Under the pieces are notes generated by a model. It was not told the origin of the DNA and did not search any database. It saw nothing but the letters and a program-made list of their open reading frames with translations. 64,000 nt of DNA, taken from NCBI RefSeq assembly GCF_000379445.1, contig NZ_KB902240.1:62001-126000 (forward strand). The letters run 5' to 3'. Within the stretch, counting starts at the first letter, position 1. Each line of letters starts with the position of its first letter. Of this stretch, positions 1 to 64,000 are shown one piece after another. Source of the DNA: Fangia hongkongensis FSC776 = DSM 21703 (lineage in GTDB: Bacteria > Pseudomonadota > Gammaproteobacteria > Francisellales > Francisellaceae). A program made the position numbers and the translations under genes.

Positions 1-248
1 GTTAATCGAGCTTGCATTGGCGTTTGACTTTCAGCTTCAAGCCGCTCGATAATACGCCCACTATCTGAGTAGATTTTTCCATTCTCACGCATAAAGGGAA
101 GCTTTTTAGTGGGCGAGTGTCTCGTATCAACACTGTAGTGATTTTTATACTCAATTTTTTGTGCACGCAAATAGCTTTCAAGCTTCATGCAAAATGGACT
201 GGCGTTAGGGAGATTATACATGGGAGGAAATTGATATAACTCGATCAT
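1..248 (-). CDS. Partial glutathione S-transferase-fold protein (3' end missing)
   Basis: The first 82 codons of a reverse-strand gene run off the left edge of the window. The protein begins MIELYQFPPMYNLPNASPFC, followed by a charged stretch and then KKLPFMRENGKIYSDSGRII. This is the thioredoxin-like N-terminal half of a GST, of the metaxin/FAXC-like type, with a P-F-C near residues 18-20 and the usual L-P-F-(x)n-D-S pattern. Its ATG shares one base with the TGA of the upstream DUF3301 gene (TGATG), so the two are probably translationally coupled. The C-terminal helical domain is not visible, so substrate and activity cannot be judged. Confidence 0.72.
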   Translation of the reverse strand, partial: MIELYQFPPMYNLPNASPFCMKLESYLRAQKIEYKNHYSVDTRHSPTKKLPFMRENGKIYSDSGRIIERLEAESQTPMQARL

Positions 249-697
249 CACTCATCCTTTTTTTCTTCTTTTGTTTTATGTCCATTAGCAGCCTTTCGAT
301 AGCTATTAAGATCAATGATATTTCCACCATCAAGATTATCCGCTTTTGGTGTTTTCTCAACTGGCGCATTTAATGCATCTGGGAGAATAGATTTATCATC
401 ACTAATCGTACGAATAAAACGAAGTCCGTTAAATTGCATAAAAGCACGATGGCGTAGAACGCCATCATAACTATATTCAAATGCATACTCGCGATAAAGA
501 CACATGCTGCCAACATCTTCTGAACGTGAAAATTTCATCTTAACCAGACACACCGTATCATCCAAAAGCTGCGCATCCCATTTTTTACACGTTTTAATTG
601 CCATAGCAACAGCCATTTCACGCGCACGCATCATCGAGCGCCAAATCAGCACAACCGTAATAATGGCAACAATAATTAAAATAACTGTAACACTCAT
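248..697 (-). CDS. DUF3301 family membrane-anchored protein
   Basis: A 149-aa protein with one N-terminal membrane helix (about residues 3-19), then a compact soluble domain. The pattern around WDAQLLDDTVCLVKMKFSR, and CLYREYAFEYSYDGVLRHRA after it, is typical of the DUF3301 family. The tail from about residue 115 is rich in Lys, Glu and Asn and looks disordered. DUF3301 proteins are small gammaproteobacterial inner-membrane proteins with no established function. The gene lies immediately upstream of the GST-fold gene and overlaps it by one base. It is divergent from ubiX, from which it is separated by about 107 bp. Confidence 0.75.
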   Translation of the reverse strand: MSVTVILIIVAIITVVLIWRSMMRAREMAVAMAIKTCKKWDAQLLDDTVCLVKMKFSRSEDVGSMCLYREYAFEYSYDGVLRHRAFMQFNGLRFIRTISDDKSILPDALNAPVEKTPKADNLDGGNIIDLNSYRKAANGHKTKEEKKDE

Positions 698-5026: not shown

Positions 5027-5038
5027 CAGGAGCACTTT

Positions 5039-5440: not shown

Positions 5441-5449
5441 AAAGTTCAT

Positions 5450-5478
5450 TTGCAATTTCATTATAACTTACGTATCAT
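5450..5478 (+). promoter_or_regulatory. Sigma-70 promoter of metK
   Basis: TTGCAA (5450-5455), a 17-nt spacer and TATCAT (5473-5478). Predicted transcription starts near 5485, leaving a leader of about 125 nt that contains two hairpins. Confidence 0.55.
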
Positions 5479-5495
5479 ACCAATCAGAATTTAAC

Positions 5496-5588
5496 TGTCG
5501 CTGATTTAAATACAACTTGCGAGCGACATAAAACAATACCGCTAAAGCGTTTCTAAGTCTCATTTTTTCATCTAGAAACCTTTTAGCG
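5496..5588 (+). promoter_or_regulatory. Structured metK leader with two hairpins
   Basis: Hairpin 1 has perfect 7-bp arms, TGTCGCT (5496-5502) and AGCGACA (5522-5528). Hairpin 2 pairs 5540-5555 with 5573-5588: 7 bp, a 2-nt mismatch, then 7 bp. It ends 10 nt before the AAGGA ribosome-binding site. No T-run follows, so it is not a terminator. A role in controlling SAM synthetase translation or mRNA stability is inference; it does not match a SAM riboswitch that I recognise. Confidence 0.5.
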
Positions 5589-5610
5589 TAACATGCAAAA
5601 GGAACACACT

Positions 5611-6765: not shown

Positions 6766-6768
6766 AGC

Positions 6769-8313
6769 CTAGCGGTACTCACTACCACTATACACTGTCT
6801 CTTTCATATCACCTTGACTGAGCACAACTAAATCAAGGCGTGTAAAGGTTAATAAATCCTCATAGGCAAGATCTTCCTTTGTGAGATATATTTGCTTTTT
6901 AATCATTTGCTTATATTTTCTATATTTTGGCACTCGATTTAAGGCACCCAAGAGCTTTTTCCCTGTTTTTGTATGCTCTCCACCCCCTCTTACCACCAAG
7001 GCAACCGCGGCGATTCGCCTTAAATAATTAATACTATAAATTGGACCATAGGCAACACAGCCTCCCCCTTCTAAATCATAAGCAATATCATGCTTAAGTC
7101 GCTCCAACCATTTTCCTTTGCGATCCGAACGAAAAGGGGCTGATGAATACCAATTTAACACCCCGGGTTTAATATAATCAATCAAGCTGACTAGATCACC
7201 ATACACAGCCATTTCATCAACCGCTGAAGAAACGCCATGCTTTTGTTGCAAACGTCTTACAATAATCACATCCTGTTGATAACTCGCACTAAGCTTGACA
7301 GAGCAAAAGCGCCCACCTTCTTGAGAACGCCATAAGTTTGCAATAACCCTTGGCTGATAGGTAAACATTTTACTGACAGAATCTGGTTCGTAATATTCTC
7401 CTTGCAATTGTAATTGCAAAGCATCCTCTTTAAAGCCATCATCCCTACTGTAAATAATCCCAAAGACTTCAATAGCTGCCTGACAGGTTCGACCCTCATG
7501 CTTTCTTCTTCGATACGCCACCTGCTTATGATCTCCATATAAAAAGTGTGCATACGCTTCCACCGCATCATCAATCAAAAGCGGTTTTTTCGCTTTTGGA
7601 TACTCACCTTGCATGTAAAAAACTGGCAATTGACAGTCAAACTCCGCTCGTCTTTCTGTACAAGCATAAAAAATATCACACAGCCGTACATTCGCAGTAA
7701 TATTGTAAGGGACTATAGCCTCAACCTGATACAGATCATCTACAAAGTTTTTTACTCTAGCAGCATCACCACCTGCAACAGGGTCAATAAGCGCCATATA
7801 GTAGACAGGAAAACCCTCTCTATTCATATGAGAGGCAAGAGAAATAGCAGTAATTGCTCCTCTTGAGTAGCCAAAAATATAAAAAACAAATTGCTTATCT
7901 TGATCATAAAGGAGTCTGCACAATGTCAATGCACAGCTCATATTATACAACCAACCACTGCCATCCATTTGATTAAGCGCATTGACCCGCCAAATTTTCT
8001 CGGAAAACTGACTGCGATCTCTTATCCCAGGTGTCTCATAAACTTGTCCTTGAAACTCACATTTTGGCGCACCAGGCCCTGGGAAATAGGCTTTTACTGC
8101 CTCACTATCTGCCAGCTGCTCCAACGCCAAGTCCCTGCCATTACCCTCAAGACCTGCCATTGTTTTATCCAACAAATCTAAAGAGAACGGCTTGACATCC
8201 ATCGCCCTACAATTGATAAATAATTCAGCAATAACATCGCGTCCAATCTCATCTTCTTGCTGCGAGTTAATATTACTTCCTGTTCCATCGAGAAATATAT
8301 AACATTTTTTCAT
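6769..8313 (-). CDS. DUF2235 / Tle1-type alpha-beta hydrolase, putative lipase
   Basis: A 514-aa protein whose N-terminus KKCYIFLDGTGSN and nucleophile elbow FGYSRGA (S150 in GxSxG) are those of DUF2235, the fold of the Tle1 phospholipase effectors. A following ALIDPVAGG segment (D177) could supply the acid. The second half shows no domain I recognise. In other bacteria DUF2235 proteins are often type VI secretion effectors, but no VgrG, Hcp, PAAR or immunity gene is in view, so an effector role is not supported here. The start is fixed by the DGTG motif. A possible 48-codon membrane protein lies 52 bp upstream on the same strand. Confidence 0.7.
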   Translation of the reverse strand: MKKCYIFLDGTGSNINSQQEDEIGRDVIAELFINCRAMDVKPFSLDLLDKTMAGLEGNGRDLALEQLADSEAVKAYFPGPGAPKCEFQGQVYETPGIRDRSQFSEKIWRVNALNQMDGSGWLYNMSCALTLCRLLYDQDKQFVFYIFGYSRGAITAISLASHMNREGFPVYYMALIDPVAGGDAARVKNFVDDLYQVEAIVPYNITANVRLCDIFYACTERRAEFDCQLPVFYMQGEYPKAKKPLLIDDAVEAYAHFLYGDHKQVAYRRRKHEGRTCQAAIEVFGIIYSRDDGFKEDALQLQLQGEYYEPDSVSKMFTYQPRVIANLWRSQEGGRFCSVKLSASYQQDVIIVRRLQQKHGVSSAVDEMAVYGDLVSLIDYIKPGVLNWYSSAPFRSDRKGKWLERLKHDIAYDLEGGGCVAYGPIYSINYLRRIAAVALVVRGGGEHTKTGKKLLGALNRVPKYRKYKQMIKKQIYLTKEDLAYEDLLTFTRLDLVVLSQGDMKETVYSGSEYR

Positions 8314-8365
8314 AATCCATAGCCCTATCCTGAATTAAACTTCCTTATTACATAGGCTTTTTATC

Positions 8366-8512
8366 CTAAATCCATATAGCTTTTCCATCACGCCATAGAC
8401 CTTTAGCGCCTACATTGTTCAAAGCAATAATAAAAGCAGGTGCCAAAGCCACAAAGAGGCTATAACCTAACGCGAATGAAGTCAAATGAAAATTAAGAAT
8501 TTTTATCTTCAA
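8366..8512 (-). CDS. Possible small membrane protein (48 aa)
   Basis: A reverse-strand reading frame from TTG 8512 to TAG 8366. It encodes a short basic start, a hydrophobic helix containing ALGYSLFVALAPAFIIAL, then a hydrophilic tail NNVGAKGLWRDGKAIWI. One clean transmembrane helix followed by a Trp-containing basic tail looks like protein rather than chance sequence. The weak points are the TTG start, the lack of a clear ribosome-binding site, and the short length. It could be co-transcribed with the DUF2235 gene 52 bp downstream. I do not recognise the family. Confidence 0.4.
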   Translation of the reverse strand: MKIKILNFHLTSFALGYSLFVALAPAFIIALNNVGAKGLWRDGKAIWI

Positions 8513-8632
8513 ACATTGTGGCTTTATCTTCACTGAATAAATGATTACAATAGCCTATCAATCTTATATATCAATCAGCTAATTGCTTATAGGTATATAT
8601 CAAAATAGTAATCTAGACAGTGGAGATTGTGC

Positions 8633-10096
8633 GTGAGTACAGATAAAAAAGCGGATATTGCAGTTGTCGGCCTTGCAGTCATGGGGCAAAATTTAATTTT
8701 AAATATGAATGATCACGGCTTTAAAGTGGTTGCCTATAATCGCACAACCAGCAAAGTAGATGAATTTTTAAATACAAGCGCGAAAGGCACAAACATTGTT
8801 GGCGCACACTCTATTCAAGAAATGGTTGATCAACTTGAGCGCCCAAGAAAAATCATGCTGATGGTAAAAGCCGGAAGTGTTGTTGATAAGTTTATTGACA
8901 GCATTATCCCATACCTTGACAAGGGCGATATTATTATAGATGGTGGCAACTCAAACTATACAGATACTGAGCGTCGCGTACATGCACTTGAAAAAAAAGG
9001 CATCTATTATATTGGTGCTGGCGTTTCAGGTGGAGAGGAAGGCGCACGCTTTGGACCTTCTTTAATGCCCGGTGGCGCCCACGCTGCTTGGCCTTATGTT
9101 AAAGATATTTTTCAAGCGATCGCTGCAAAGACACCCAATGGTGATGCATGTTGTGAATGGGTTGGAAATGGTGGTGCGGGCCACTTTGTCAAAATGGTTC
9201 ATAACGGCATTGAATATGGTGATATGCAAATTATCTCTGAAGCCTATCAATTTATGAAAGAGCATTTGGCTTTAAGTAATGATGATCTAAGCGCAACTTT
9301 TAAGGCTTGGAATAAGACTGAACTTAATAGCTATTTAATTGAAATTACTGCCAATATCTTTGCCTTTAAAGACAAAGATGGAAATTATGTAATAGACCAA
9401 ATACTTGACACCGCGGGACAAAAAGGAACGGGAAAATGGACTGGCATTAATGCACTTGAGCTTGGTGTGCCATTAACTTTAATTGCTGAGAGCGTATTTG
9501 CACGCTGTATATCGGCACAAAAATCGCTAAGAGTAGAGGCAAGCGAATCCTATCCACACAAGATTGCTAAAGCAAATACAAAAGATCACGATAATATTCT
9601 AAATGATCTGAATAAAGCACTTCTATTTGCAAAAATCACCTCCTATGCACAAGGTTATATGCTAATGCAAGAGGCATCAACCATCCATAATTGGTCGCTT
9701 AACTATGGTGATATTGCACTTATGTGGCGTGAAGGTTGCATCATTAGAAGTGTATTTCTAGAGCATATTAAAAAAGCATTTGATGCCAACCCTAAATTGA
9801 CTAATTTACTCTTGGATGGCTATTTTAAAGCGCTTATTATCGAAGCGCTGCCTTCAGCAAGAAGGATTGCCGCTAAAAGTATTGAGCTTGGTCTGCCGAT
9901 GCCTGCGCTTACCTCTGCCGTTAGCTTTTTTGATGGCTTTAGCACAAAACGATTACCTGCAAATCTGCTTCAGGCACAACGTGATTACTTTGGTGCACAT
10001 ACCTATGAAAGACTAGATAGGCCACGCGGCGAGTTTTTCCATACTGACTGGATTGGTTCAAATAGCAATGTTTCCTCTTCAAGCTATAATGTATAA
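8633..10096 (+). CDS. gnd: 6-phosphogluconate dehydrogenase, decarboxylating
   Basis: Oxidative pentose-phosphate pathway enzyme that converts 6-phosphogluconate to ribulose-5-phosphate and CO2 with NADPH formation. GTG at 8633 (487 aa) is preferred because GGAG sits 7 nt upstream; a TTG at 8627 is too close to that site. It has the dinucleotide-binding GLAVMGQNLILNMNDHGF, the NRTTSKV loop (NADP-type Arg), GGNSNYTDTERR, GAGVSGGEEGARFGPSLMPGG, and KMVHNGIEYGDMQII. The tail ends HTDWIGSNSNVSSSSYNV. The YiiX-like gene begins inside its last 8 bases. Confidence 0.96.
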   Translation: MSTDKKADIAVVGLAVMGQNLILNMNDHGFKVVAYNRTTSKVDEFLNTSAKGTNIVGAHSIQEMVDQLERPRKIMLMVKAGSVVDKFIDSIIPYLDKGDIIIDGGNSNYTDTERRVHALEKKGIYYIGAGVSGGEEGARFGPSLMPGGAHAAWPYVKDIFQAIAAKTPNGDACCEWVGNGGAGHFVKMVHNGIEYGDMQIISEAYQFMKEHLALSNDDLSATFKAWNKTELNSYLIEITANIFAFKDKDGNYVIDQILDTAGQKGTGKWTGINALELGVPLTLIAESVFARCISAQKSLRVEASESYPHKIAKANTKDHDNILNDLNKALLFAKITSYAQGYMLMQEASTIHNWSLNYGDIALMWREGCIIRSVFLEHIKKAFDANPKLTNLLLDGYFKALIIEALPSARRIAAKSIELGLPMPALTSAVSFFDGFSTKRLPANLLQAQRDYFGAHTYERLDRPRGEFFHTDWIGSNSNVSSSSYNV

Positions 10097-10802
10097 ACGC
10101 CTTTTATCACACCTACAAAGCACAATAAGCCGAGCTAAATCTCACTTTAGCCTTACTGCCATCATTGCGATTATCTTTTTAATACTTAGCAATCAAGCTT
10201 ATAGCTACGAGCCACAAAAAGGTGATTTATTATTTCAAGATCTTAACTGTGGCACCCTCTGTAATGCCATTACTACGGTGACTTATGGCTATCATAATAC
10301 CCAAATCTCTCATGTTGCAATGATTGTAAACACAGGGAAAAATCCACAAGTTATTGAAGCTATAGGTGATGAGGTTCATCTTACAGCTCTTAGCACATTT
10401 CTTCTTCGCTCGAGAGATCCAAGTGGCAATGCTCGTGTGCTTGTTGGCCGATTAAAACCACAATATCAGCACCTTATCCCAAAGGCAATTAAGATCGCAC
10501 TTAAGTGGCAAGGACTACCATACAATCGAACTTTTAATCCAGATAATCAATTTGAGGCATTCTACTGCTCTGAGCTGATCTATGATGCTTTTATGCTTGC
10601 GAATAACGGCAAGCCTATTTTCAAGCTCAATATAATGACATTTAAACAAAATGGAAAGTTTCTGCCTGAGTGGGTTCAGTACTTTAAAACACAGAAAGCC
10701 CACATCCCTGAAGGCAAATCAGGCACAAACCCAGGCATGATGTCACGATCCAAAGCAATTGATATTATCTATAGCTACAGCAACGAAATGAGAAAAGTTT
10801 AA
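10089..10802 (+). CDS. YiiX/YebB-like NlpC/P60-superfamily cysteine hydrolase
   Basis: A permuted-papain-fold hydrolase, about 237 aa from ATG 10089. That ATG overlaps the gnd stop by 8 bases, so it is probably translationally coupled. A hydrophobic signal or anchor helix (AIIAIIFLILSNQAYS) ends near residue 39, so it is probably exported. The core shows PQKGDLLFQDL, the candidate catalytic His in QISHVAMIV, and the catalytic Cys in FYCSELIYDAF. YiiX-like enzymes are predicted amidases or peptidases of the cell envelope, with substrate unknown. It converges on aroB with a 4-bp overlap. Confidence 0.78.
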   Translation: MYKRLLSHLQSTISRAKSHFSLTAIIAIIFLILSNQAYSYEPQKGDLLFQDLNCGTLCNAITTVTYGYHNTQISHVAMIVNTGKNPQVIEAIGDEVHLTALSTFLLRSRDPSGNARVLVGRLKPQYQHLIPKAIKIALKWQGLPYNRTFNPDNQFEAFYCSELIYDAFMLANNGKPIFKLNIMTFKQNGKFLPEWVQYFKTQKAHIPEGKSGTNPGMMSRSKAIDIIYSYSNEMRKV

Positions 10803-11890
10803 ACAAACACCTCTGTCTCTAAGAAGATTTTAAGCTTCTCCATTGAGATCGTTTTATCAACACGCGCTTGACCAATGCCACCGAGTAAGACAAATGTGAT
10901 ATTCTTCCCATCGACATTTTTCTTATCTCTTAGCATCGCTGCAACAAAGGCTTCTTGATCAATGCCCTCTGGCATCTCAACTGGGATTAAAAGCGCTTGC
11001 AGCAAATTGCTAATCCTTTTGACCACATCGGCATTCACTAACCCAAGCTGATAAGAGAATTTAGCAGCAATAACCATTCCAACACCAACGGCCTCGCCGT
11101 GCCTTAATCCTGTGTAATTCTGACAGCATTCAATACCGTGACCAAAGGTGTGCCCCAAATTTAAAAGCGCACGAACGCCAGTTTTTTCAAGCTCATCCGC
11201 TTTAACTACTTCAGCCTTAAGCGCACAACTTCTTGCAATGATATAACTCAACACACTAGGATCTTTAGCTCGTATTTCTGTAACATGCTTTTCCAAATAA
11301 TCAAAAAACACACCATCAATAATACAGCCATATTTCACAACTTCTGCAAGCCCTGCCCTATACTCTCTATCAGAAAGCGTATCAAGCACATTTGTTGCTG
11401 TGTAAACCAGCTGTGGCTGAAAAAAAGCGCCAATCATATTCTTCCCCAAGAGATGATTAATCGCCGTTTTGCCACCCACTGAAGAGTCTACCTGAGATAA
11501 TAAGGTGGTTGGGACTTGAATGACCGACACACCTCGCAGGTAGGTTGCCGCTGCAAAACCTGTAATATCACCAATAACACCACCACCAAGTGCAACTAAA
11601 ACACACTCACGAGTGTAGTTATTTTTAAGTAATATTTGATAAATTTGATTTAATGATTCATGGCTTTTATATTGCTCACCATCTTTAAGCTCACAGAGTA
11701 AAAAAGAACTTGCTTGAGAAGAAAGCTCAGCTTCCATCTTTGCATAAAAAAGCGTTTTCACCGTATCATTTGTTACCACTAAAACCTGCTTTTTAGCAAT
11801 AAAAGGAATAAGCGGCGAAAAATCCATTTGAGCGTCAATCAAGACCTCATAACTTGGCTTACCCTTTGGGCTTACCAAGACTTTTTTCAT
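10799..11890 (-). CDS. aroB: 3-dehydroquinate synthase
   Basis: Second step of the shikimate pathway: DAHP to 3-dehydroquinate, NAD and Zn dependent. 363 aa from ATG 11890; an in-frame TTG three bases upstream is ignored. Hallmarks are ALGGGVIGDITGFAAATYLRG, QVPTTLLSQVDSSVGGKTAIN, KNMIGAFFQP, and the zinc ligands in LNLGHTFGHGIE and LRHGEAVGVGM. The ATG shares a base with the aroK stop (TGATG), the usual aroK-aroB coupling. Confidence 0.97.
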   Translation of the reverse strand: MKKVLVSPKGKPSYEVLIDAQMDFSPLIPFIAKKQVLVVTNDTVKTLFYAKMEAELSSQASSFLLCELKDGEQYKSHESLNQIYQILLKNNYTRECVLVALGGGVIGDITGFAAATYLRGVSVIQVPTTLLSQVDSSVGGKTAINHLLGKNMIGAFFQPQLVYTATNVLDTLSDREYRAGLAEVVKYGCIIDGVFFDYLEKHVTEIRAKDPSVLSYIIARSCALKAEVVKADELEKTGVRALLNLGHTFGHGIECCQNYTGLRHGEAVGVGMVIAAKFSYQLGLVNADVVKRISNLLQALLIPVEMPEGIDQEAFVAAMLRDKKNVDGKNITFVLLGGIGQARVDKTISMEKLKIFLETEVFV

Positions 11891-12414
11891 CAAACTGCCT
11901 CTTCCATTAGCAAGTTTGTTATTTTTTGCACAACATTACGTACTGTTGTTTCGCTGGTTTCAATTGTAATATCTGCAATTTCACGATACAAAGGCTCACG
12001 CTCTGCCATCAATTTTTTCAACTGCGCTTCTTTATCATCAACCTGTAATAATGGACGCTTTTTATCTTTTGCCGTTCTTTCAAGCTGCTGCTCAACAGAA
12101 GCTTGCAAATACACAACCTTCCCACGCGATGATAATAAAGTACGGTTCTCTGGCAGCAAAATAGCCCCACCGCCTGTCGCTAAAACAATCCCTTGTCTTT
12201 TTGCTAAATCACTTAGCACTTCCTGCTCACGTCGTCTAAAACCTTCTTCTCCCTCGATATCAAAAATCCAGTCTATATCAACACCACAGCGTTGTTCAAT
12301 TTCTCTATCTGAATCAACAAAATCAAGTTTCAGCTCATTTGACAGCTGGCGCCCTATTGTACTTTTACCAGCACCTACAGGACCTATCAAAAAAACATTT
12401 TGTGTTATGATCAT
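11890..12414 (-). CDS. aroK: Shikimate kinase
   Basis: Phosphorylates shikimate at the 3-position. 174 aa. The Walker A loop is GPVGAGKS (11-18). The shikimate-binding DSDREIE, the FRRREQEVL block, the GGGA loop of [12 protein letters not shown], and the lid Arg in KKRPLLQ are all in place. It is first in the aroK-aroB pair, with a one-base overlap. Upstream lies a 374-bp divergent region containing the lptF promoter and leader. Confidence 0.96.
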
Positions 12415-12589
12415 ATTTCTCTACATTACTTTAATTTGGATTAAACACATTCAGACCCATATATCCATAGGCGATCAATGGACAGCCATTTTTCGCAACC
12501 CACATAAAATACACAAAAATGCTTTTATTCGCAAGTATTATCCGCTTTTAAACACATTATCCTCATCCAATCCATACATTAAAAAAGGA

Positions 12590-12619
12590 TTGCAAAAAAC
12601 GCTGTTTTTCCACGATAAT
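12590..12619 (+). promoter_or_regulatory. Sigma-70 promoter of the lptF-lptG transcript
   Basis: TTGCAA (12590-12595), an 18-nt spacer and GATAAT (12614-12619). Transcription should start near 12626, giving a leader of about 160 nt before the lptF TTG codon. Confidence 0.5.
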
Positions 12620-12657
12620 AATGTACAATATTGTGTTGAGCATTAATTTAACAGCGC

Positions 12658-12748
12658 CCAAGTTATTGTAACCAAAGATCGAGTGATTAGATAGCCCATC
12701 GATCAGCAAAAACTTGGCCTTTATACCAACGCCTCTTAGGTTAGAGGC
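12658..12748 (+). promoter_or_regulatory. Structured leader of lptF (three stems)
   Basis: An outer stem CCAAGTT (12658-12664)/AACTTGG (12711-12717) encloses an inner stem GATCGA (12677-12682)/TCGATC (12699-12704). A separate hairpin GCCTCT (12731-12736)/AGAGGC (12743-12748) follows. All arms pair perfectly. There is no T-run, so it is not a terminator. It could be a cis-regulatory RNA for the LPS transporter or a small RNA in its own right. The rest of the 12415-12788 gap shows no gene. Confidence 0.45.
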
Positions 12749-12788
12749 ACGTTAGTAAATTGCGCTAATAAACTTAGGGTAACCACGG

Positions 12789-13871
12789 TTGATTTTACAA
12801 CGCTATTTAAATCGCGAACTTGTCAATATGACAACCGCCATCATTTTCATATTGCTATTAATTGTCATTAGCAACATGTTTGTTCGTTATCTTTCCATTG
12901 TCTCTGGTGGAAATATCGAAGCCGATGCTATTTTTAAGATGATTGCTGTGATGCTGCCCAAGTATATTGCTTATCTGTTACCAATTAGCTTCTTTTTTGC
13001 CATCTTACTGGTATATGGCAAACTTTTTGCTAACAATGAGCTATTTGTCGCATTTGCTTGTGGTACCAGCTGGTTTCGATTATTAAAAATCATTATGATC
13101 CCGGCATTGTCGCTTTTTATTATTGAGCTTATTCTGACCCTATTTATTCTTCCCAAAATGGATCAAAGCTACTTCCTTGTGCAAAAAACGACAACCAAGA
13201 ACTCACTGATTAGCTTTATTCAACCCGGAAAAATCATCCCCTTTAATGATGGGAAGCAAGTGGTCTATACAAAATCGACTGATCGTGATGGTGATATGCA
13301 TGATATTTTCATTTATCAAAAGCGCCCAGATAATCGAAGTACTATTATTACTGCTCCTACAGGTTATGCTGAAACACAGACTGATGGCAATCAGTATCTT
13401 GTACTTGAAAATGGACATTATTATGATGTCACCCCCGGTAATATTGTTGTCCAAAAAGGTAAGTTTACAAAAGCCACCCAATTTCTCTCTGGCAAGGTAA
13501 CCCTAGGAAACAACAGCTCCATTGACTCTGTGCCAACCAGTCAGTTAATTGGCTCAAATGATTTACAATATAAAGCAGAGCTGCAATGGCGATTGAGCTT
13601 TCCGATTGCAATTTTAATCTCCACACTCATTGCCCTTGCCCTTTGCAGGATGCGCCCAAGACAAAATCGCTATAGTAAAATTATTCCTGCGATTTTAATT
13701 TTTATTATCTACTTCAACTTCATATCACTATCAAAAACATGGCTCGCAAATGGAACAGTTCCAACCTGGATCGGCATTTGGTGGGTGCATATACTCTTTG
13801 GTGGAGTGATGCTTGTTATTCTCAAGCGCTACAATGGAAAAAATAGATACAAAGAGGTTAAAGCACTATGA
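12789..13871 (+). CDS. lptF: LPS export ABC transporter permease LptF
   Basis: Half of the LptFG inner-membrane permease that loads lipopolysaccharide onto the Lpt bridge. 360 aa. The start is an unusual TTG at 12789, with AGGG 9 nt upstream, and the encoded MILQRYLNREL matches the family's first residues, so no other start fits. Three N-terminal helices, a periplasmic beta-jellyroll (about 140-260) and three C-terminal helices give the YjgP/YjgQ layout. It overlaps lptG by 4 bases (ATGA). A structured leader precedes it. Confidence 0.93.
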   Translation: MILQRYLNRELVNMTTAIIFILLLIVISNMFVRYLSIVSGGNIEADAIFKMIAVMLPKYIAYLLPISFFFAILLVYGKLFANNELFVAFACGTSWFRLLKIIMIPALSLFIIELILTLFILPKMDQSYFLVQKTTTKNSLISFIQPGKIIPFNDGKQVVYTKSTDRDGDMHDIFIYQKRPDNRSTIITAPTGYAETQTDGNQYLVLENGHYYDVTPGNIVVQKGKFTKATQFLSGKVTLGNNSSIDSVPTSQLIGSNDLQYKAELQWRLSFPIAILISTLIALALCRMRPRQNRYSKIIPAILIFIIYFNFISLSKTWLANGTVPTWIGIWWVHILFGGVMLVILKRYNGKNRYKEVKAL

Positions 13872-14938
13872 GAAAACTTACTCTCTATGTCGCCTCAACG
13901 GTTCTTTACACCTCATTTATTATGATTTTGGCGTTAACCGCGATTTTTTTTATTTTTACTTATATCAACCAAGCTGGTGATATTGGTCAGGGAAACTATA
14001 GCGCACTAGATGCTTTTTTATTTGTGCTATATGATGCACCAGCAAATATTTATCTGATCATGCCGGTCTGTGCTCTTTTAGGTGGAATGATGGGACTTGG
14101 ACTGCTAGCACATAATAGTGAGCTGATTGTCATGCGCGCCTCAGGCCAGTCTATTGCCCAAATTGCAAAAGGGGTGTTGCTTGCAGCCTCAATTTTAGCG
14201 CTTTTAACTTTTTTGATGGGCGCCTATATCGCACCGTATTTCCAGAAAAAAGCCGCTGTGAACAAAACACTTGCCACAGGCGGCAATCAAGCGCTTGTCC
14301 TCTATGACACACAATCTATCTGGGTACGTGAAGGAAACTCATTTATCCATGTTGGCAAAAATGAACCCAATGGACAATTACGCAATATCACACGTTTTGA
14401 GGTCAGTAATAATGAGCTTGATGCCGTGTCATTTGGAAAAAATGCTGAGTACAAAGGCAAACAATGGCATGTTCAAGATGTGAATATAACTAAAATCAAT
14501 CAACAAAGTGCATCTACCGAACATAAAGCTCAAGATATCTGGAATAACCTTTTACCGCCTTCACTTTTAAAAATTATCACCTCTAATACAGATTATCTTA
14601 ATTTAAATGAGCTCGTTGACTATATAAAAGCAAATAAAGAAGAATCGCAAAGCGCCAATCGAATCTGGCTTAAGTTTTGGCAAATGTTCTTTCAGCCTCT
14701 TTCACTTTTGATTCTCATGCTTATTTCCGTTCCATTCTCTCTTGGATCACAGCGCTCCAGCGCCATGGGTTATAAACTTGTTCTTGGCATGCTATTTGGC
14801 TTTTCATTCTATATTATCAACCAAACCTTTGGTCCCTTTAGCCTTGTATACAACCTCCCAGCGTTTTTAGGCGCTGCGATACCAAGTTTTATCTTCTTGA
14901 TATTGTTGGCTTTTTTATTTTGGAAAATGAAAGAATAG
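13868..14938 (+). CDS. lptG: LPS export ABC transporter permease LptG
   Basis: Partner of LptF. 356 aa with the same three-helix, periplasmic domain, three-helix layout. The first part includes the family's NSELIVMRASGQSIAQIAKG coupling-helix region, which contacts the LptB ATPase. The start codon lies inside the lptF stop (ATGA overlap), ensuring balanced translation. rsmD follows 8 bp after. LptB and the bridge proteins LptA and LptC are not in this window. Confidence 0.93.
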   Translation: MRKLTLYVASTVLYTSFIMILALTAIFFIFTYINQAGDIGQGNYSALDAFLFVLYDAPANIYLIMPVCALLGGMMGLGLLAHNSELIVMRASGQSIAQIAKGVLLAASILALLTFLMGAYIAPYFQKKAAVNKTLATGGNQALVLYDTQSIWVREGNSFIHVGKNEPNGQLRNITRFEVSNNELDAVSFGKNAEYKGKQWHVQDVNITKINQQSASTEHKAQDIWNNLLPPSLLKIITSNTDYLNLNELVDYIKANKEESQSANRIWLKFWQMFFQPLSLLILMLISVPFSLGSQRSSAMGYKLVLGMLFGFSFYIINQTFGPFSLVYNLPAFLGAAIPSFIFLILLAFLFWKMKE

Positions 14939-57101: not shown

Positions 57102-57839
57102 TTAAACACTCAAACCTCCATCAATACAGATAACCTGCCCTGTTATGTACTTAGAGTGCTTGCTAGCAAGATGAACTGCCATCTCTGCAATGCACTCTGC
57201 ATTACCAAAGCTCCCCATTGGTATTTCTTTGAGAGCAGACGCTTTCATCGACTCTGTCATTTCATTTGTCATATCAGTTTCAATATACCCTGGGGCTATA
57301 CAATTAACCGATATATTATAAGGTGCCACTTCCCTGGCTAATGCTTTTGTAAAGCCAACAACACCAAATTTAGATGCGCAATAATTGACTTGCCCAGTAA
57401 CTCCCTTGATGCCTGCAACCGATGAAATGTTAATTATACACCCTTCACGTTCTCGTATCATTCTATAAATACAGGATCGAGAAACATTGTAAACTCCGTT
57501 TAAATTTACATTTATCACCTGCTGCCATTCTTCATCCTTCATGAAAATAAATCGTGCATCTTTTGTTATACCAGCATTATTAATTAAAACATCTATTTTT
57601 CCCCACTTATCATATGCCACTTCAATGACAGAGGATGCCTCTTCTTTAATTGATATATCAGCTTGGACAATAATCCCAGTTTGGCCAAGAGACTTTATCT
57701 CAGCATTCAATTTCTCTGCCAAATCTAAATTTTTGTTACAGTGTATGAGAATATCATAGCCACTTTGAGCAAACCTTAAAGCCAATGCCCGACCTATCCC
57801 ACGACTTGAACCTGTAATAACAGCAACTTTCTTACTCAT
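57102..57839 (-). CDS. SDR-family reductase, FabG-like
   Basis: 245 aa, NAD(P)-dependent. It has the TGSSRGIG cofactor loop (9-16), NNAGITKDARF, catalytic Ser in NISSVAGIKG, and the Y-x3-K in VNYCASKFGVVGF. NCIAPGYIETDMT and GQVICIDGGLSV follow. The sequence is of the 3-oxoacyl-ACP or acetoacetyl-CoA reductase type. In this cluster it may reduce a pathway intermediate rather than serve fatty-acid synthesis; the fabH/fabD/acpP set is not next to it. It is last in the operon, 12 bp after the methyltransferase. Confidence 0.86.
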   Translation of the reverse strand: MSKKVAVITGSSRGIGRALALRFAQSGYDILIHCNKNLDLAEKLNAEIKSLGQTGIIVQADISIKEEASSVIEVAYDKWGKIDVLINNAGITKDARFIFMKDEEWQQVINVNLNGVYNVSRSCIYRMIREREGCIINISSVAGIKGVTGQVNYCASKFGVVGFTKALAREVAPYNISVNCIAPGYIETDMTNEMTESMKASALKEIPMGSFGNAECIAEMAVHLASKHSKYITGQVICIDGGLSV

Positions 57840-57851
57840 TTGACTATATAC

Positions 57852-58643
57852 CTATGGTTTTTTAATATAAATATGTGCCCAATATTTTGCAATATTTTTA
57901 CTCCACTCTGAGCTCTCCCTAGACACAAGATTTCTTAGCGGTAGACCATCCTTAACTAAATCAAGCAGTTTTCTACTAGATGATGTAAATCCACCAAACC
58001 CACCAAATAAAATTTGGCTCTGCTCAAAAAAGCACTCAGAAACTATAGCTTCCAGCTTTTTAGCACTAAGTGCAGAGTCAAGCGCTGCCTTGATGAAATG
58101 TTCACCATTTTTACCAGGGGCGGTGCGAATAAGAAAACTCCTATCAGGCTCATCAACAGAAATTACATCAGTAAAGTAAACATAGCCACCAGAACGTAAA
58201 ACACGAAATGCTTCAAGCAAGGCTTTCTTTGGATTAGGAACATTTCTTAGCATAAACTGACTAACAACTAAGTCATATGTATTGTCTTCAAATGGCAAAT
58301 CTACCGCATCACCGATCGTACATATAGCAGAGGTTCCTGTTAATTGTTGGATATTTTTTTCAGCCAAGTAAAGCATGGGTTCTGAATGATCCAATAAGGT
58401 AAATTTAGATTGTGAACTCAGCTTTGATAAAATGGATGTTAAATAGCCTGGTCCACACCCGACTTCTAATACATTACCACTTGATTTAACAATACCAGAT
58501 AAATATGCAGCTATATAGGCCTGAAAATAATATGAATCGCTAAACGCCGTTTTTGAGAAATCCATATATAATGATGCCACATCATTCGAGTAGGACTTAG
58601 AAGACCAGAGGGGTTCTTTTTTAACAATTTCAAAATCATTCAT
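57852..58643 (-). CDS. Class I SAM-dependent methyltransferase
   Basis: 263 aa from ATG 58643; GAGG 7 nt upstream supports it over an in-frame TTG at 58658. The SAM-binding motif is VLEVGCGPG (58-66), with a DHSEPM acidic loop, DAVDLPFEDNTYDLVVSQFMLRN split over motif II/III, and VLRSGGYVYFTDV. The UbiE/small-molecule methyltransferase layout implies a low-molecular-weight acceptor. The start overlaps the preceding gene's stop by 8 bases. It has no closer family I can name. Confidence 0.84.
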   Translation of the reverse strand: MNDFEIVKKEPLWSSKSYSNDVASLYMDFSKTAFSDSYYFQAYIAAYLSGIVKSSGNVLEVGCGPGYLTSILSKLSSQSKFTLLDHSEPMLYLAEKNIQQLTGTSAICTIGDAVDLPFEDNTYDLVVSQFMLRNVPNPKKALLEAFRVLRSGGYVYFTDVISVDEPDRSFLIRTAPGKNGEHFIKAALDSALSAKKLEAIVSECFFEQSQILFGGFGGFTSSSRKLLDLVKDGLPLRNLVSRESSEWSKNIAKYWAHIYIKKP

Positions 58644-59043
58644 AATAAACCTCAACAAAAAAATTCCTAGAGCTATTTGCTAATTGTGCTTTCCAATATA
58701 AACGAGCTCCTTTTAGATTTGATATAACTTTATTTTCGGTCATCTTAATACAGCAATGGTCATCATTAACTAAAATTATGCCATTTGTGTCTATTGCACC
58801 TGTGGCATTTCTTTCAATAGAGATTTTTTCACCCGTACTAAGTGAAATAACCTCATGGACATGTATATTAACTCTATCCGAGTAAATTATTGCATAGTCT
58901 ATCCCACGACATGTCCCTTTTAATTCACTAGAAAAAACATCACCTAGATAATGAAAGTTGACACGCTTTCCACCATCATCCAAAGTACAGATTTCATCTA
59001 CTTTTACAAATCGACCATCCATTCGATATAAACAATTACTCAT
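58636..59043 (-). CDS. Unknown beta-rich protein (possibly DUF3237-like)
   Basis: 135 aa, alternating hydrophobic pattern predicting many beta strands, and no signal or membrane segment. RGIDYAIIYSDRVNIHVHEV and GAIDTNGIILVNDD faintly recall the small beta-barrel DUF3237 family, which occurs beside polyketide genes, but the match is weak. It overlaps the diiron-cupin gene and the methyltransferase gene by 8 bases each, so it belongs functionally to the cluster. A cyclase-like or binding role is only a guess. Confidence 0.55.
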   Translation of the reverse strand: MSNCLYRMDGRFVKVDEICTLDDGGKRVNFHYLGDVFSSELKGTCRGIDYAIIYSDRVNIHVHEVISLSTGEKISIERNATGAIDTNGIILVNDDHCCIKMTENKVISNLKGARLYWKAQLANSSRNFFVEVYYE

Positions 59044-60208
59044 CTGTCATCTCACTACCTTCTAATTTAACTAACTCCAAATTTTTTTGTCTATATGAAG
59101 TTTCGCTATTCTTAGGAAAGTATTTTGTAAGGTTATAATCTGTCATTGCCAATATTTTAAGATTATCATTTCCAATATTGATTGTTTGATGGCTAACCCA
59201 TCTTGGAATATATACATAACTACCACCTCGAATATCCTGAACCTCGTCTCCAATGCGAACCTGACCCATACCAGATATAACGTAAAAGAACGCTTCATGA
59301 GCATGTTTATGATATTCATTTTTACACTTTGCAGGAATTATTAGCAATCGTGGATCTAAAACTCTACCCTGTATTGCAAATCGCTTAACAGAGAAATTCA
59401 CAGACTGTTCACAAGATTTGTTTTCGTATAATAAACTATCAGTTAATTGATCTTCAAAACTAACAATACTGTCATATTTTAGCGCTGCTTGATCATTACC
59501 ATTAGCTAGTAAACCCTTCAATATAGGTGAAAAGCGTTTTCCATATATCTCTTTATAAATTTCCGTAAAAAACTCATCACGCAAATTTAACGCTATATTT
59601 ATAGCTTTTATACAAGATTGTTGACAAGTTTCATCTAAACTCTGCCACTGCAACGCATCCTCTAAGGCTTTAGCATGCCCATGATCACAATGTATATGCT
59701 CAACAAAAAATGTCAAATGTTGTTCAGAAACTCCACAACTGCTTAACCCCTGGATAAATATGTTATACAACTCAGCAACGATCCCCTCAGTTGCATACGC
59801 TAATATAGCAAGTACTTCCTTAAAACTTGAATTTGTACATAGTGATAAATAACTATTTACAAAATATTTAGTTATAGGAAGGTATTGTATTGGTGATTCT
59901 TGAACGCCAATCCCACGAAGAAAATTGACAAATAATCTAGAATGTGAGCTCATTAAATTTTTTTCACCAACTTCCTCCCACAAATTAGAGACAATAATAC
60001 TACGTGCCGTTTCATCAGAGCACTTGGCCAAAGCAGTTGCAAGTATACGAGTAAAGTTTGATGAGTAAAAAGAGTACTGAGAAAAGAACAGCGCACAATC
60101 TGGCAGTTCAATTGTATTCTCGGTAAACATTTTTAATAATGGATTAGACCACAACTTATGACACTTTATTAGTTCATTTATATCATTTTTTTGGTAAACC
60201 GCGCCCAT
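59036..60208 (-). CDS. Haem-oxygenase-like diiron oxygenase fused to a cupin
   Basis: 390 aa from ATG 60208, with AGGAG 10 nt upstream. Residues 1-225 form a TenA/PqqC/haem-oxygenase-like helical bundle with the candidate metal ligands E78/E79 in NLWEEVGE, H89, E141/E146 and the H171-x3-D175-x2-H178 block in EHIHCDHGHAK. This matches iron-containing redox enzymes such as UndA, BesC and SznF. Residues 280-365 are a cupin with YHKHAHEAF (H300, H302, E305) and H340 in WVSHQTIN. Such a fusion is unusual. It would be an oxidative tailoring enzyme; the reaction is unknown. Confidence 0.7.
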   Translation of the reverse strand: MGAVYQKNDINELIKCHKLWSNPLLKMFTENTIELPDCALFFSQYSFYSSNFTRILATALAKCSDETARSIIVSNLWEEVGEKNLMSSHSRLFVNFLRGIGVQESPIQYLPITKYFVNSYLSLCTNSSFKEVLAILAYATEGIVAELYNIFIQGLSSCGVSEQHLTFFVEHIHCDHGHAKALEDALQWQSLDETCQQSCIKAINIALNLRDEFFTEIYKEIYGKRFSPILKGLLANGNDQAALKYDSIVSFEDQLTDSLLYENKSCEQSVNFSVKRFAIQGRVLDPRLLIIPAKCKNEYHKHAHEAFFYVISGMGQVRIGDEVQDIRGGSYVYIPRWVSHQTINIGNDNLKILAMTDYNLTKYFPKNSETSYRQKNLELVKLEGSEMTDE

Positions 60209-60340
60209 AGCTATCATTCTCCTATCAATATTTAATCGCAAAGGTTATTGCACTTTTGTTATTTTATTTACTAAATATAGAAATTAAACACCATAGCCAG
60301 TCAGACGAGCTACCAGAAGTGGTGCTTTCATATCAGTAGT

Positions 60341-61222
60341 TTATTTAAGTTTCATCATTTTTTTTGAAATCACATTATATAAATTTGGGTTCTTTAAAAT
60401 GTCATAATGACCACAATCAAAAATATTTAGAGAAGCTCTTATATCCACACTTCGGCAAGTTTCTAACAAATATTCAGACTGATCTATAGGAAGCATCTTG
60501 TCAAATTTTCCATGCATAATACACAAGTCAACCTCACCTGAGTGTTTCATTAAGCTGATATTCTCGACAGGAGAACAAGCACTCCATAATTCGTCCCTAT
60601 TCATGCGATTTTTGAATCGATCTACTATTAAATCAGAAAGTAGCGAATAAACGTCTTCTTCAGCATTTAAAACATTCAAAAAACCTTTGATTATTGGAGG
60701 AAATGTGGCATTAGGTGCTATCAGACCAAGCTGTTTAATCTGAACTGATTTATTACGCATTTCATAAGTAAGAGCTCCAGCACCAAAGCTATGAGTAATA
60801 GCCAAATCAAAACCACCTCCATTGACTAAGCTAATTTGACTTATACACTCCATAAACTCACCAATATCAGTATTACTACCTTCAGAAAGTCCATGAGCTG
60901 GAGCATCAAAGCCTATAACATGAAAATCAGCATTGCATAACAAATTGATAATTCCAGAAAAATCTAAACACCTTCCACCAAAACCATGAACTAATAATAC
61001 TTTTTTATTACTTGTTTGATTCCAATGGTATGTTGTAACTTCCTTATTATTTACTGAAAAATTCATGCTTTTGTCTGTTTTATTTATTAAATCTCGCTCG
61101 GTGCGGTAATACTTATTCCTTTTTTTTGGATAAAACATGATTTGATATGCTGCTTTTGCGGCTTCTAATGGATCATAACCTTTACAAGTTTTGTCAAAAA
61201 GATTGAATTCTTTATTTACCAT
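60341..61222 (-). CDS. Alpha/beta hydrolase
   Basis: 293 aa from ATG 61222 (GGAG 6 nt upstream; another ATG at 61225). It has the oxyanion loop VLLVHGFGGR and the nucleophile elbow in ITHSFGAGALTYE (S in H-S-x-G). KFDKMLP holds the likely acid and CGHYDIL the catalytic His. FDAPAHGLSEGS is typical of esterases and C-C bond hydrolases. The first 75 residues are an extra basic, Tyr-rich extension. In the cluster it could act as a thioesterase or as a self-protection hydrolase. Confidence 0.82.
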   Translation of the reverse strand: MVNKEFNLFDKTCKGYDPLEAAKAAYQIMFYPKKRNKYYRTERDLINKTDKSMNFSVNNKEVTTYHWNQTSNKKVLLVHGFGGRCLDFSGIINLLCNADFHVIGFDAPAHGLSEGSNTDIGEFMECISQISLVNGGGFDLAITHSFGAGALTYEMRNKSVQIKQLGLIAPNATFPPIIKGFLNVLNAEEDVYSLLSDLIVDRFKNRMNRDELWSACSPVENISLMKHSGEVDLCIMHGKFDKMLPIDQSEYLLETCRSVDIRASLNIFDCGHYDILKNPNLYNVISKKMMKLK

Positions 61223-61280
61223 CATACTCTCCTTATATAAGAATTATTTGTTAAATTTATATGCAACCAATGCAACTCCA

Positions 61281-62708
61281 TCAACTACTTTGATAAATAG
61301 ATTCACCATCATTTTGTCTACTCAAAATTAAGTCATCATCTTGATACTTATTTAGCACAGCACTTTTTTTCATTTTTTTGTTATATAGCAACAATATAGC
61401 GATGGCCCCCAGCACCATACCAATTGCACGTGCACTATATATTCCCTCAATACCCAATCCTGCTATAAAGCCTAAAACATAAGCAAGCGGTAATGTTATA
61501 CCTGTCATACAAATTGAATTAGCTATTGCAGGCCAAAAAGAATATTTATAGCCACGAAGAACCCCAGTGGTTATATTACGTATATTATCCGCTATCACAC
61601 CAATGCTATTAATTAGAAACAGGGTTGATGTCGCAATAATTAATGTTTTATTAGTCGTAAATACCTCAGCAAGAAGTTCACTAAAAATATTAAACAGCAA
61701 AGCAACCAATACACCTATACCTAAACTCAGCATAATCGATACTTTACCAACCATCTTTGCATTAGCTATATTATTTGCTCCAAACTCCCTACCAACCAAT
61801 ACTCCAACAGTTTGAGATATTGCAAAAGATATCACAACAACAATTGCTAAATATTGATCTGTAATCTGGTTTTCAGCTAGCATACCCAAAACACCCGCAA
61901 ACATTGTAACTGTAATCACTGTAGCAAGCTCTGATGATATCTGCACTCCGATAGGCATCCCAATCTTAAAAAGAGACTTCAACTCACTCATAAGTTCAAT
62001 AATTTTATTTTTTTCATATAAACCAAAAATTGTAAAATTTTGCTCATATTTCAAATACAAAATAAGTAAAACCAAGTTTATCCAATTTGCAATAACAAAT
62101 GCATAACCCATTCCAGCAATACCAAGCCCTTCCATAGATGCAACTCCATTGACTAATGGATATCCAACACCAACAAAAAGAGCTGTGTTGATGACTGTTG
62201 ATAAAAGCACAGCTTTAGCCTTTGCCATTCCTATCAAAACTTGTTGCATTGCATTGACCATAAGACAAGGTATTATACCCATACAAATGATTGTGAAGTA
62301 TTTTTGAGATAGCCTAGCCAAATGAGGGTCTTGTTCTGCTCCGATATAAATTTTGCTTGCCAATAAGCAAATCACGATAACAGGGAGAGACAAAATTAAT
62401 GACTGAATTAAGCTAGCTTGGAATATTTTACCTACTTGCTTAAAATTACCACTTCCGAAATTAATACCTACTTTAATAGCTACTGAATACATTACACCAA
62501 TTGCAATAGAAAGCAAAAAAAGTTGTCCCGAGGTAATCAGAGGTGTTACCGACAAGTAATCATGGTTGTATCTAACAAGTATCAATGTCATTAAAAAAGC
62601 ATTACCTATAAAAAATAATCTCGATAAAGCAAATGGCCAACCTTGCTGAAGAATTTTTTTTAAAACAATCGCTGCGGATAACTCTATTAGGTTTGATTTA
62701 TACTGCAT
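61281..62708 (-). CDS. MATE-family efflux transporter
   Basis: 475 aa, twelve hydrophobic helices in two six-helix halves. Recognisable MATE parts are LFFIGNAFLMTLILVRYNHD (start), QVLIGMAKAKAVLLSTVINT, IGMPIGVQISSELA opening the second half, and QTVGVLVGREFGANNIANAK. It is probably an Na- or H-coupled exporter, and in this operon the likely exit route for the product. AGGA lies 8 nt upstream of ATG 62708. It overlaps the preceding gene by 22 bases. Confidence 0.9.
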   Translation of the reverse strand: MQYKSNLIELSAAIVLKKILQQGWPFALSRLFFIGNAFLMTLILVRYNHDYLSVTPLITSGQLFLLSIAIGVMYSVAIKVGINFGSGNFKQVGKIFQASLIQSLILSLPVIVICLLASKIYIGAEQDPHLARLSQKYFTIICMGIIPCLMVNAMQQVLIGMAKAKAVLLSTVINTALFVGVGYPLVNGVASMEGLGIAGMGYAFVIANWINLVLLILYLKYEQNFTIFGLYEKNKIIELMSELKSLFKIGMPIGVQISSELATVITVTMFAGVLGMLAENQITDQYLAIVVVISFAISQTVGVLVGREFGANNIANAKMVGKVSIMLSLGIGVLVALLFNIFSELLAEVFTTNKTLIIATSTLFLINSIGVIADNIRNITTGVLRGYKYSFWPAIANSICMTGITLPLAYVLGFIAGLGIEGIYSARAIGMVLGAIAILLLYNKKMKKSAVLNKYQDDDLILSRQNDGESIYQSS

Positions 62709-63226
62709 TTATAAGATCCTTTTTTTGTTTTATTCAAATCAAGTTCAACATAAAAAGTACACGCTGATGCAGACTGCATACAGCACTGAGTGATTTTATG
62801 CTTTTTTATATTTATATTCATTTCGGAAAACCATGCACTTCTTATTTCAAAACAAGGACATTCATAGTTTTCTAAGCTGTTTGCAAGCCTTAACATATAC
62901 AGGGCAAAATTTCTCGTAACATCAACTTCAAAAACACGCTCGCTTTCCACTCTATAGCGAATTTCAACCATTTCATCAGGCCACATTCTTTGTGAACAGC
63001 GTTGAATTATCTCAATAACATCTTCCATACTTGCAATTTTATTTGAAATCAAATACTTTTTGACTTCCTGGCGAGCAACACGCTCAGCTAAAAATATCAA
63101 TATTTTCTTATTTAGTCGATTTGCTACTGCAAAACCAAATTCTGTAGCAACTTCCTGATACCAACGCGCATCATGCAACCACCACAATTGAAAAATTTTT
63201 TTTTCTGACAATTTATGTTCGCTCAT
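62687..63226 (-). CDS. DUF6125-like protein of unknown function
   Basis: 179 aa from ATG 63226, whose AGG is part of the previous gene's stop; a GTG at 63235 would overlap that stop. The N-terminal LWWLHDARWYQEVATEFGFAVANRLNKKI has the Trp/His/Asp and ANRLN pattern of the DUF6125 / L-2-amino-thiazoline-4-carboxylate hydrolase-like group. The second half has a Cys-rich stretch YECPCFEIRS and QCCMQSASAC that could bind metal. Its role is unknown. It is coupled to both neighbours by short overlap or gap. Confidence 0.6.
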   Translation of the reverse strand: MSEHKLSEKKIFQLWWLHDARWYQEVATEFGFAVANRLNKKILIFLAERVARQEVKKYLISNKIASMEDVIEIIQRCSQRMWPDEMVEIRYRVESERVFEVDVTRNFALYMLRLANSLENYECPCFEIRSAWFSEMNINIKKHKITQCCMQSASACTFYVELDLNKTKKGSYKCSINQT

Positions 63227-63231
63227 TAATA

Positions 63232-64000
63232 TCACCTGTATATAATTTGATCTGCCGCCATCTTACCAGAAACTGCCGCTGTCAATAGCCCTCCTGGATA
63301 GAGTGTCCAATGGCCCGCAAAATAGAGGTTTTCAAATGGAGTAGTAACCCCTTGCTCGTTTAATTTAAATAGGGTTCTTTTAGGATTCCAGGTCCAACCA
63401 GCCGTTGCACCATTGTAATTGCCAGTGTATCTAGTATGTGTCATCGGTGCACCATGCATTTTAAAATTAATACTCTCACTAAACCCAGGAATGTATTTCT
63501 CAACATTTTCAATTAATTGCTGACCAACCATAGCCTTGAGCTTCAGGTAGTCTTTAGTTCGTTTTCCTAGGCGATTTATCTTCCAATGATTCATCCAAGC
63601 AATACTAGAAAAACACTGCAATACCACCTGTGATCCGCCCGAATGGGTCATATTCGGATTTTGTAATACTGGTGCTGAAATCTCTACAGGTAAATTTTTA
63701 TGAAAATTTATATCAAAAGGATCTGCAAAGTCACTATCAGGAAAATACCAAGTATGATGACTATTATTAAGTGCTTGTTTTAGTTCATCCACTGGAATTG
63801 ATGTACCAATATATGAAGAAAAAAAGGCTTCACTCGTAGGTGTTTTTTTTGCTTTATTCATTAAACCATGAATAAGAGGATGACCTTTTAATAAAGTTTC
63901 AAGGGCAAATACTAAGTCTGTATTACAGATCACATAATCAGCATGTACAACACTTTTATCACCCAGGCGTACACCTGTTACTTTTTCCCCTTCAGTTATA
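63232..64000 (-). CDS. CrtI/CrtO-like FAD-dependent oxidoreductase (5' part missing)
   Basis: The frame stays open to the right edge, so the gene starts outside the window; 255 residues are visible. The cut begins EGEKVTGVRLGDKSVVHADYVICNTD, the ADxVI(S/C)N strand of phytoene-desaturase-like proteins, split here by a substrate domain. The end carries NLYFAGHWTLYPGGLLTAAVSGKMAADQI, the C-terminal FAD motif. The family desaturates or oxidises polyenes and other hydrophobic substrates. It shares a 5-bp gap with the DUF6125-like gene and is the first visible gene of the cluster. Confidence 0.85.
   Translation of the reverse strand, partial: ITEGEKVTGVRLGDKSVVHADYVICNTDLVFALETLLKGHPLIHGLMNKAKKTPTSEAFFSSYIGTSIPVDELKQALNNSHHTWYFPDSDFADPFDINFHKNLPVEISAPVLQNPNMTHSGGSQVVLQCFSSIAWMNHWKINRLGKRTKDYLKLKAMVGQQLIENVEKYIPGFSESINFKMHGAPMTHTRYTGNYNGATAGWTWNPKRTLFKLNEQGVTTPFENLYFAGHWTLYPGGLLTAAVSGKMAADQIIYR

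Follow-up and report, generated by a model that had tools for sequence, protein, structure and literature searches.

SznF/StzF, the characterized streptozotocin N-nitrosourea synthase, has a diiron heme-oxygenase-like domain (HDO) with a C-terminal cupin and, according to a 2026 review, differs in having this cupin from the other characterized HDOs (PMC13108848). In SznF, the compound that the HDO forms by N-hydroxylation is then rearranged by the cupin (PMC13108848, PMC11705231, PMC10849742). SznF carries an N-terminal dimerization domain, and residues E215, H225, E281, H311, D315 and H318 of the HDO and H407, H409 and H448 of the cupin are essential (PMC11705231). The HDO superfamily is recognized by an E-H-E-H-(D/E)-H motif (PMC11363339), and the metal set of SznF is 3H/4C (PMC13108848). 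The SznF homologues GrbD and ChmM also have an HDO and then a cupin in one chain. The characterized HDOs with a 3H/3C set (BesC, HrmI, UndA and MboA) are without a cupin, as is CADD.

The same two-domain order was found in P0001, a protein of 390 amino acids encoded in the window analyzed here (64,000 nucleotides of Fangia hongkongensis FSC776 = DSM 21703; contig NZ_KB902240.1, positions 62,001 to 126,000). The limits that the original prediction gave for the gene, which is on the minus strand, were correct. The open reading frame starts with an ATG at 60208, with AGGAG ∼10 nt upstream, and an alternative in-frame ATG lies three codons earlier. The Pfam families Haem_oxygenas_2 (PF14518; residues 41 to 210; E value, 9.7e-27) and Cupin_2 (PF07883; residues 291 to 354; E value, 8.1e-14) matched with scores that exceeded their gathering cutoffs. 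Structure prediction, proposed as a check on the two domains, gave both folds: in the AlphaFold2 model, which was computed from a 54-row alignment (mean pLDDT, 88.4), a helical bundle (residues 8 to 236) is followed by a loose, low-confidence linker (∼239 to 249) and a beta-barrel (259 to 361). The presence of an HDO and a cupin in one chain was thus borne out by both Pfam and the model. The pTM of 0.74 leaves the mutual arrangement of the two domains unsure. When modeled alone, the cupin folded well (pLDDT, 86.9). A chance match was rejected as an explanation of P0001, and no phage match for the protein was found. As judged from its sequence, P0001 is a real, well-conserved protein with two putative sites.

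Coordinates in the window of the HDO-cupin gene, its domains and predicted ligand codons, and the neighboring genes
Feature	Position	Strand	Basis
SDR ketoreductase, FabG-like	57102..57839	-	TIGR01830 above cutoff
SAM-dependent methyltransferase	57852..58658	-	Pfam, NCBIfam
135-aa protein, no Pfam match; start overlaps HDO-cupin stop	58636..59043	-	Pfam
CDS, fused HDO-cupin protein P0001, 390 aa	59036..60208	-	Pfam
Cupin domain, residues 259-361	59126..59434	-	Pfam, alignment, model
Linker, residues 237-258, model confidence partly low	59435..59500	-	Model
HDO domain, residues 8-236	59501..60187	-	Pfam, model, ligand alignment, structure superposition (VIA)
H178, putative HDO ligand	59675-59677	-	Aligned
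D175, putative HDO ligand	59684-59686	-	Aligned
H171, putative HDO ligand	59696-59698	-	Aligned
E141, putative HDO ligand	59786-59788	-	Aligned
H89, putative HDO ligand	59942-59944	-	Aligned
E79, putative HDO ligand	59972-59974	-	Aligned
Alpha/beta hydrolase	60341..61225	-	Pfam
MATE exporter	61281..62708	-	Pfam, NCBIfam
182-aa protein, no Pfam match	62687..63235	-	Pfam
Phytoene desaturase/carotenoid isomerase-like (CrtI-like) FAD enzyme, 530 aa, C-terminal part	63232..64000	-	

The E-H-E-H-D-H ligand set proposed for the HDO named the right residues. E79, H89, E141, H171, D175 and H178 were unchanged in all 11 fused HDO-cupin proteins that were aligned, and they coincide with the ligand positions of CADD, NePabS and BesC, the last of which has Glu at D175. 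By its Pfam match, the model and the superposition on CADD, the P0001 HDO is a seven-helix heme-oxygenase-like bundle, and these alignments give it a putative 3H/3C dimetal site.

The cupin had been expected to have a His-rich site of its own, and the Cupin_2 match together with the conserved residues agreed with this. The predicted site (H300, H302 and H340) was invariant in the 11 fused proteins, and H304 and E305 also never changed. All fused proteins have A, S or T (A306 in P0001) in place of the canonical cupin Glu at position 306, so that the site reads as a three-His site. Gentisate and 5-aminosalicylate 1,2-dioxygenases are likewise three-His oxygenases; those known are bicupins, whereas P0001 has a single cupin fused to an HDO. 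They were the best curated matches for the cupin half, whose sequences in 4 of the 11 members gave weak, partial matches to gentisate and 5-aminosalicylate dioxygenase profiles, so that an oxygenase step by the cupin is as plausible as a rearrangement. A structure search with the cupin only gave a flat ranking, which cannot indicate the reaction because enzymes and nonenzymes (CENP-C, vicilins) rank together.

The original prediction described this combination of domains as one not known from a characterized enzyme. That statement is refuted by SznF/StzF, in which a diiron HDO is joined to an iron cupin (PMC13108848, PMC11705231, PMC10849742). SznF was also the best Foldseek match in the PDB across both domains of P0001 (E value, 2e-10; 372 columns), with an rmsd of 14.8 Å; either the two domains are positioned differently to each other than in SznF or their mutual position is uncertain. 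Superposition of the HDO on SznF gave a Z score of 17.6 (VIA). SznF was absent from the phmmer list for P0001 (E limit of 1) and was reached only by the 54-row profile (E value, 1.5e-5 over 115 residues). In residue correspondences taken from the published numbers and the alignment offsets, SznF 141..380 aligned with P0001 5..237, and the offset of 136 also held at E79/E215 and H89/H225. The spacing of the HDO ligands matched (E+10 H, H+4 D and H+7 H), and H300, H302 and H340 have the same three-His HxH...H arrangement as the cupin residues of SznF.

P0001 differs from SznF in several respects. Its predicted metal set is 3H/3C rather than 3H/4C: at the position to which the constant offset assigns the seventh SznF ligand (E189), P0001 has T53, and all fused proteins have S or T. 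The N-terminal dimerization domain is missing, with the HDO beginning at approximately residue 8. No equivalent of SznF Tyr459 was seen; residue 351, its counterpart 11 positions after the third cupin His when mapped by spacing only, is a Lys that is not conserved. Lacking the N-terminal domain and the seventh ligand, and with an HDO far closer in sequence to CADD and BesC, the P0001 family does not look like an orthologue of SznF. The architecture is the same and the lineage different, and the two kinds of fusion likely arose independently; the domain trees described below cover relatives other than SznF. What is known already is the HDO-cupin layout, from SznF; what differs is the lineage and the ligand set.

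The nearest HDOs in both sequence and structure were CADD and NePabS (TIGR04305), which have the six ligand positions in common with P0001. The HDO superposed on CADD with a Z score of 26.0 (1.8 Å over 209 amino acids; VIA), followed by HrmI (25.4), FlcD (23.1), BesC (22.4) and UndA (21.9), all closer than SznF. In the profile search, CADD (1e-33) and BesC (5e-31) were likewise far closer than SznF. BesC, HrmI, UndA and MboA share the fold and the 3H/3C metal set with P0001.

Searches for other proteins with both domains, also proposed as a check, brought the number of fused proteins to 11, P0001 included, from Gammaproteobacteria, other Pseudomonadota, Cyanobacteria and Myxococcota. The others were 32 to 40% identical to P0001. 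A single-sequence scan of genome contigs with P0001 gave no match, and a three-row profile scan gave 31 loci. Among named genomes, the profile scan placed fused relatives in Pseudoalteromonas and in Burkholderiales, Neisseriaceae, cyanobacterial and Myxococcales MAGs. Three further fused relatives came from cyanobacterial genomes, and full-length relatives were present in two further gammaproteobacterial genomes (42 and 43% identity within the matched stretch). Full-length fused proteins were rare, occurring in 3 of 369 genomes of the gammaproteobacterial class, 4 of 291 of the cyanobacterial class, and 1 of 349 of the order to which the Burkholderiales MAG belongs; none was reported from other genomes of the same taxonomic family as F. 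hongkongensis. Among the papers searched on HDOs with ThiF or with an adjacent cupin gene, none described the fused family.

The same two domains also occur as separate genes. At approximately 10 other loci an unfused HDO gene is followed by an adjacent cupin gene on the same strand; these are in Pseudomonas (several), Legionella norrlandica, Methylomonas, Paraburkholderia, two further genomes covered by the Burkholderiales search, Brasilonema, and one myxobacterium. The paired cupins also keep the three His residues, except for a Gln at the H300 position in one (L029). In the HDO tree most of the pairs formed a separate clade, and the fused clade (support, 99/99) also contained the unfused HDO of Brasilonema (L024) and a cyanobacterial HDO (L085), beside which no cupin was found. 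In the cupin tree the Brasilonema cupin grouped with the pairs, and the myxobacterial cupin (L080) grouped with the fused proteins (100/100 split). These conflicts between the domain trees for Brasilonema and the myxobacterium show that partners were swapped, and it can be argued that the two domains work together, because partners were exchanged while the combination was kept. The coupling of HDO and cupin is thus probably functional. No cupin was found adjacent to the HDO in many other HDO relatives (Microbulbifer and others). One HDO-cupin pair (7491-9128 in L087 of genome G412; region 926-14020) lies, as read from the sequences, beside homocitrate-synthase-like, FixABCX-like electron-transfer and iron-sulfur assembly genes, apparently in a nitrogen-fixation region.

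The P0001 gene, which overlaps the next gene, belongs to a run of 13 genes on the same strand. In order, these encode a ketosynthase (KS), a KS-like protein, a FabZ-like dehydratase, a FAD enzyme (geranylgeranyl-reductase-like), an SDR, the CrtI-like FAD enzyme, the 182-amino-acid protein, the MATE exporter, the alpha/beta hydrolase, the HDO-cupin protein, the 135-amino-acid protein, the methyltransferase and an SDR; the first five lie beyond the window. The KS-like protein, as read from its translation, is without both catalytic His residues. No ACP was recognized by motif search, either within the operon or in its surroundings, which leaves the nature of the product uncertain. No gene for arginine or amine supply was recognized in the operon with Pfam or NCBIfam. 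Its G+C content is 35%, compared to 38% around it. In a sample of the class, none of 273 other genomes had a close relative of the CrtI-like protein (E value of 1e-60), as would suit an acquired cluster; among the best 10 records of a plasmid search, the protein gave only matches of 22 to 26%. In the stretches 57102-64000 of the window and 9233-15643 of L002, two KS-type genes accompany FabZ/FabG-like genes and one for a CrtI-like enzyme, again with no ACP found.

The neighborhoods of the relatives are of other kinds. At L020 (4270-8945) the HDO-cupin gene is accompanied by genes for a ThiF-like enzyme, an MFS exporter and an AlkA-like DNA glycosylase. The same ThiF-MFS-AlkA order, at 38 to 51% identity, recurs in an unrelated genome at L017 (7981-13714), interrupted by the insertion of two genes and with an inverted HDO-cupin gene; L017 also encodes a protein with an O6-methylguanine-transferase DNA-binding domain. 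It is possible that the clustered AlkA provides self-protection against a DNA-alkylating product at these two loci. MATE, ThiF and MFS genes are near the fused gene at L016, and the fused gene of Pseudoalteromonas sp. OOF1S-7 (L019, 3985-11140) abuts a CofD-like gene among F420 cofactor biosynthesis genes. ThiF, MFS, FeeM-like and class III aminotransferase genes are near the Pseudomonas pairs. AMP-ligase and DeoC-type aldolase genes occur at L024 and L044, with a 3-dehydroquinate synthase II gene also at L024. PEP-mutase-like neighbors (L017, L021 and Pseudomonas) were not counted as a conserved partner because they are only 26 to 35% alike between groups. No conserved biosynthetic neighborhood was seen for the cyanobacterial fused members. 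For several members, these contexts suggest that the substrates are activated amino or aryl acids, but they do not indicate one substrate common to all. HDO genes with or without a cupin lie by genes for an aldolase, a 3-dehydroquinate-synthase-II-like protein and an AMP-ligase at L088 (1774-8478) and L024 (9983-13259), an arrangement that may be compared with 3-amino-4-hydroxybenzoate-type pathways.

Two successive oxidations, or handling of the HDO product by the cupin, were suggested in the original prediction, and by analogy with SznF, the domains of which catalyze consecutive steps, this remains the best functional reading. We put the probability that P0001 carries out two-site tailoring, an HDO oxidation and then a cupin step as in SznF, at about 0.5. 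P0001 would be a tailoring oxygenase with two active sites in a small specialized-metabolite operon. Its HDO would bind two irons (or Fe/Mn) through the 3-His/3-carboxylate set, activate O2 and oxidize the substrate first; the three-His cupin, probably with iron, would then take over the product for a dioxygenase-type oxidation or a rearrangement, and handover within one chain would keep a reactive intermediate on the protein. We infer the identity of the metals, the order of the two steps and catalysis at both sites. The substrate here is probably the product of the adjacent ketosynthase/dehydratase/reductase line, and several relatives probably act on an amino or aryl acid, judging from the aminotransferase, ThiF and AMP-ligase neighbors; the family does not fix the substrate class, because its members have different contexts (ThiF, F420 genes or none). 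The two-step reading is supported by the invariant ligands, the SznF match, the gene pairs, the swapped partners, the cupin profiles and the operon context. It is weakened by the relatives without a cupin, the lack of a conserved cyanobacterial neighborhood, the lack of an ACP, and a model that does not superpose on SznF.

It is also conceivable, if unlikely, that only the HDO is catalytic and that the cupin serves in binding, oligomerization or gating, presenting the substrate or recognizing the product. The HDO relatives with no adjacent cupin and the flat structural ranking would fit such a role, which is difficult to reconcile with three His residues that are invariant in the fused proteins and, apart from the one Gln, kept in the pairs. 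Rather improbable is N-N bond formation as in SznF, in which the HDO would hydroxylate a guanidine or an amine for rearrangement by the cupin to an N-nitroso group. The domain order, ligand spacing, HxH...H cupin and top Foldseek match are all as this would predict, and the AlkA-like, MFS and ThiF genes of L017 and L020 would suit a DNA-alkylating product; however, P0001 has neither the N-terminal domain nor the seventh ligand nor, by spacing, a Tyr459 counterpart, its sequence similarity to SznF is remote, and its operon has no recognized arginine or amine supply gene.

Instead, the adjoining alpha/beta hydrolase might release a polyketide or fatty acid that, as the free compound, then undergoes UndA/BesC-like C-C cleavage or desaturation, with the cupin acting afterwards; at this locus, this would be a more specific sub-case of the two-site reading. 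The KS/FabZ/FabG-type operon and the proximity of the HDO to BesC in the profile search and to UndA in superposition favor such chemistry, but other family members are in quite different contexts, and we consider it a poor prospect. The possibility that P0001 is a self-sacrificing p-aminobenzoate synthase of the CADD family has next to no likelihood and was rejected. TIGR04305 was the top NCBIfam match of the HDO half, but its 60.5 bits are far under the cutoff of 200, and at position 151, where CADD, NePabS and the CADD-like rows have the conserved active-site K, all fused members have F, L or W; it is this missing Lys that contradicts the assignment.

If the two-site reading holds, the recurrence of a 3H/3C HDO with a three-His cupin across phyla suggests that handover of a product from HDO to cupin is a general strategy. 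More tentatively, the fused proteins may represent a second, independently assembled HDO-cupin lineage with a two-step oxidation that SznF does not show, and some of its members (L017 and L020) would make an AlkA-guarded DNA-alkylating product; as part of the same tentative proposal, this lineage may have been built repeatedly from the same two parts, as a fusion, as an operon pair and with swapped partners. The fused family provides enzymes and gene clusters on which the handover could be examined, and comparison with it could reveal what the cupin contributes in SznF.

HDOs in other layouts were also encountered. In the genome of one relative (G166) there is an additional HDO, which has an N-terminal domain and the FlcD/HrmI layout (L015, 1426-2523), and SznF was absent from the phmmer list for this FlcD-like protein (E limit of 10). 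On a Pantoea agglomerans plasmid (NZ_CP143422.1; L091, 7905-9905), a gene annotated only as ectB joins an HDO of the same group as that of P0001 to an EctB-like class III aminotransferase and has a GNAT gene upstream of it; this is a second kind of HDO fusion.
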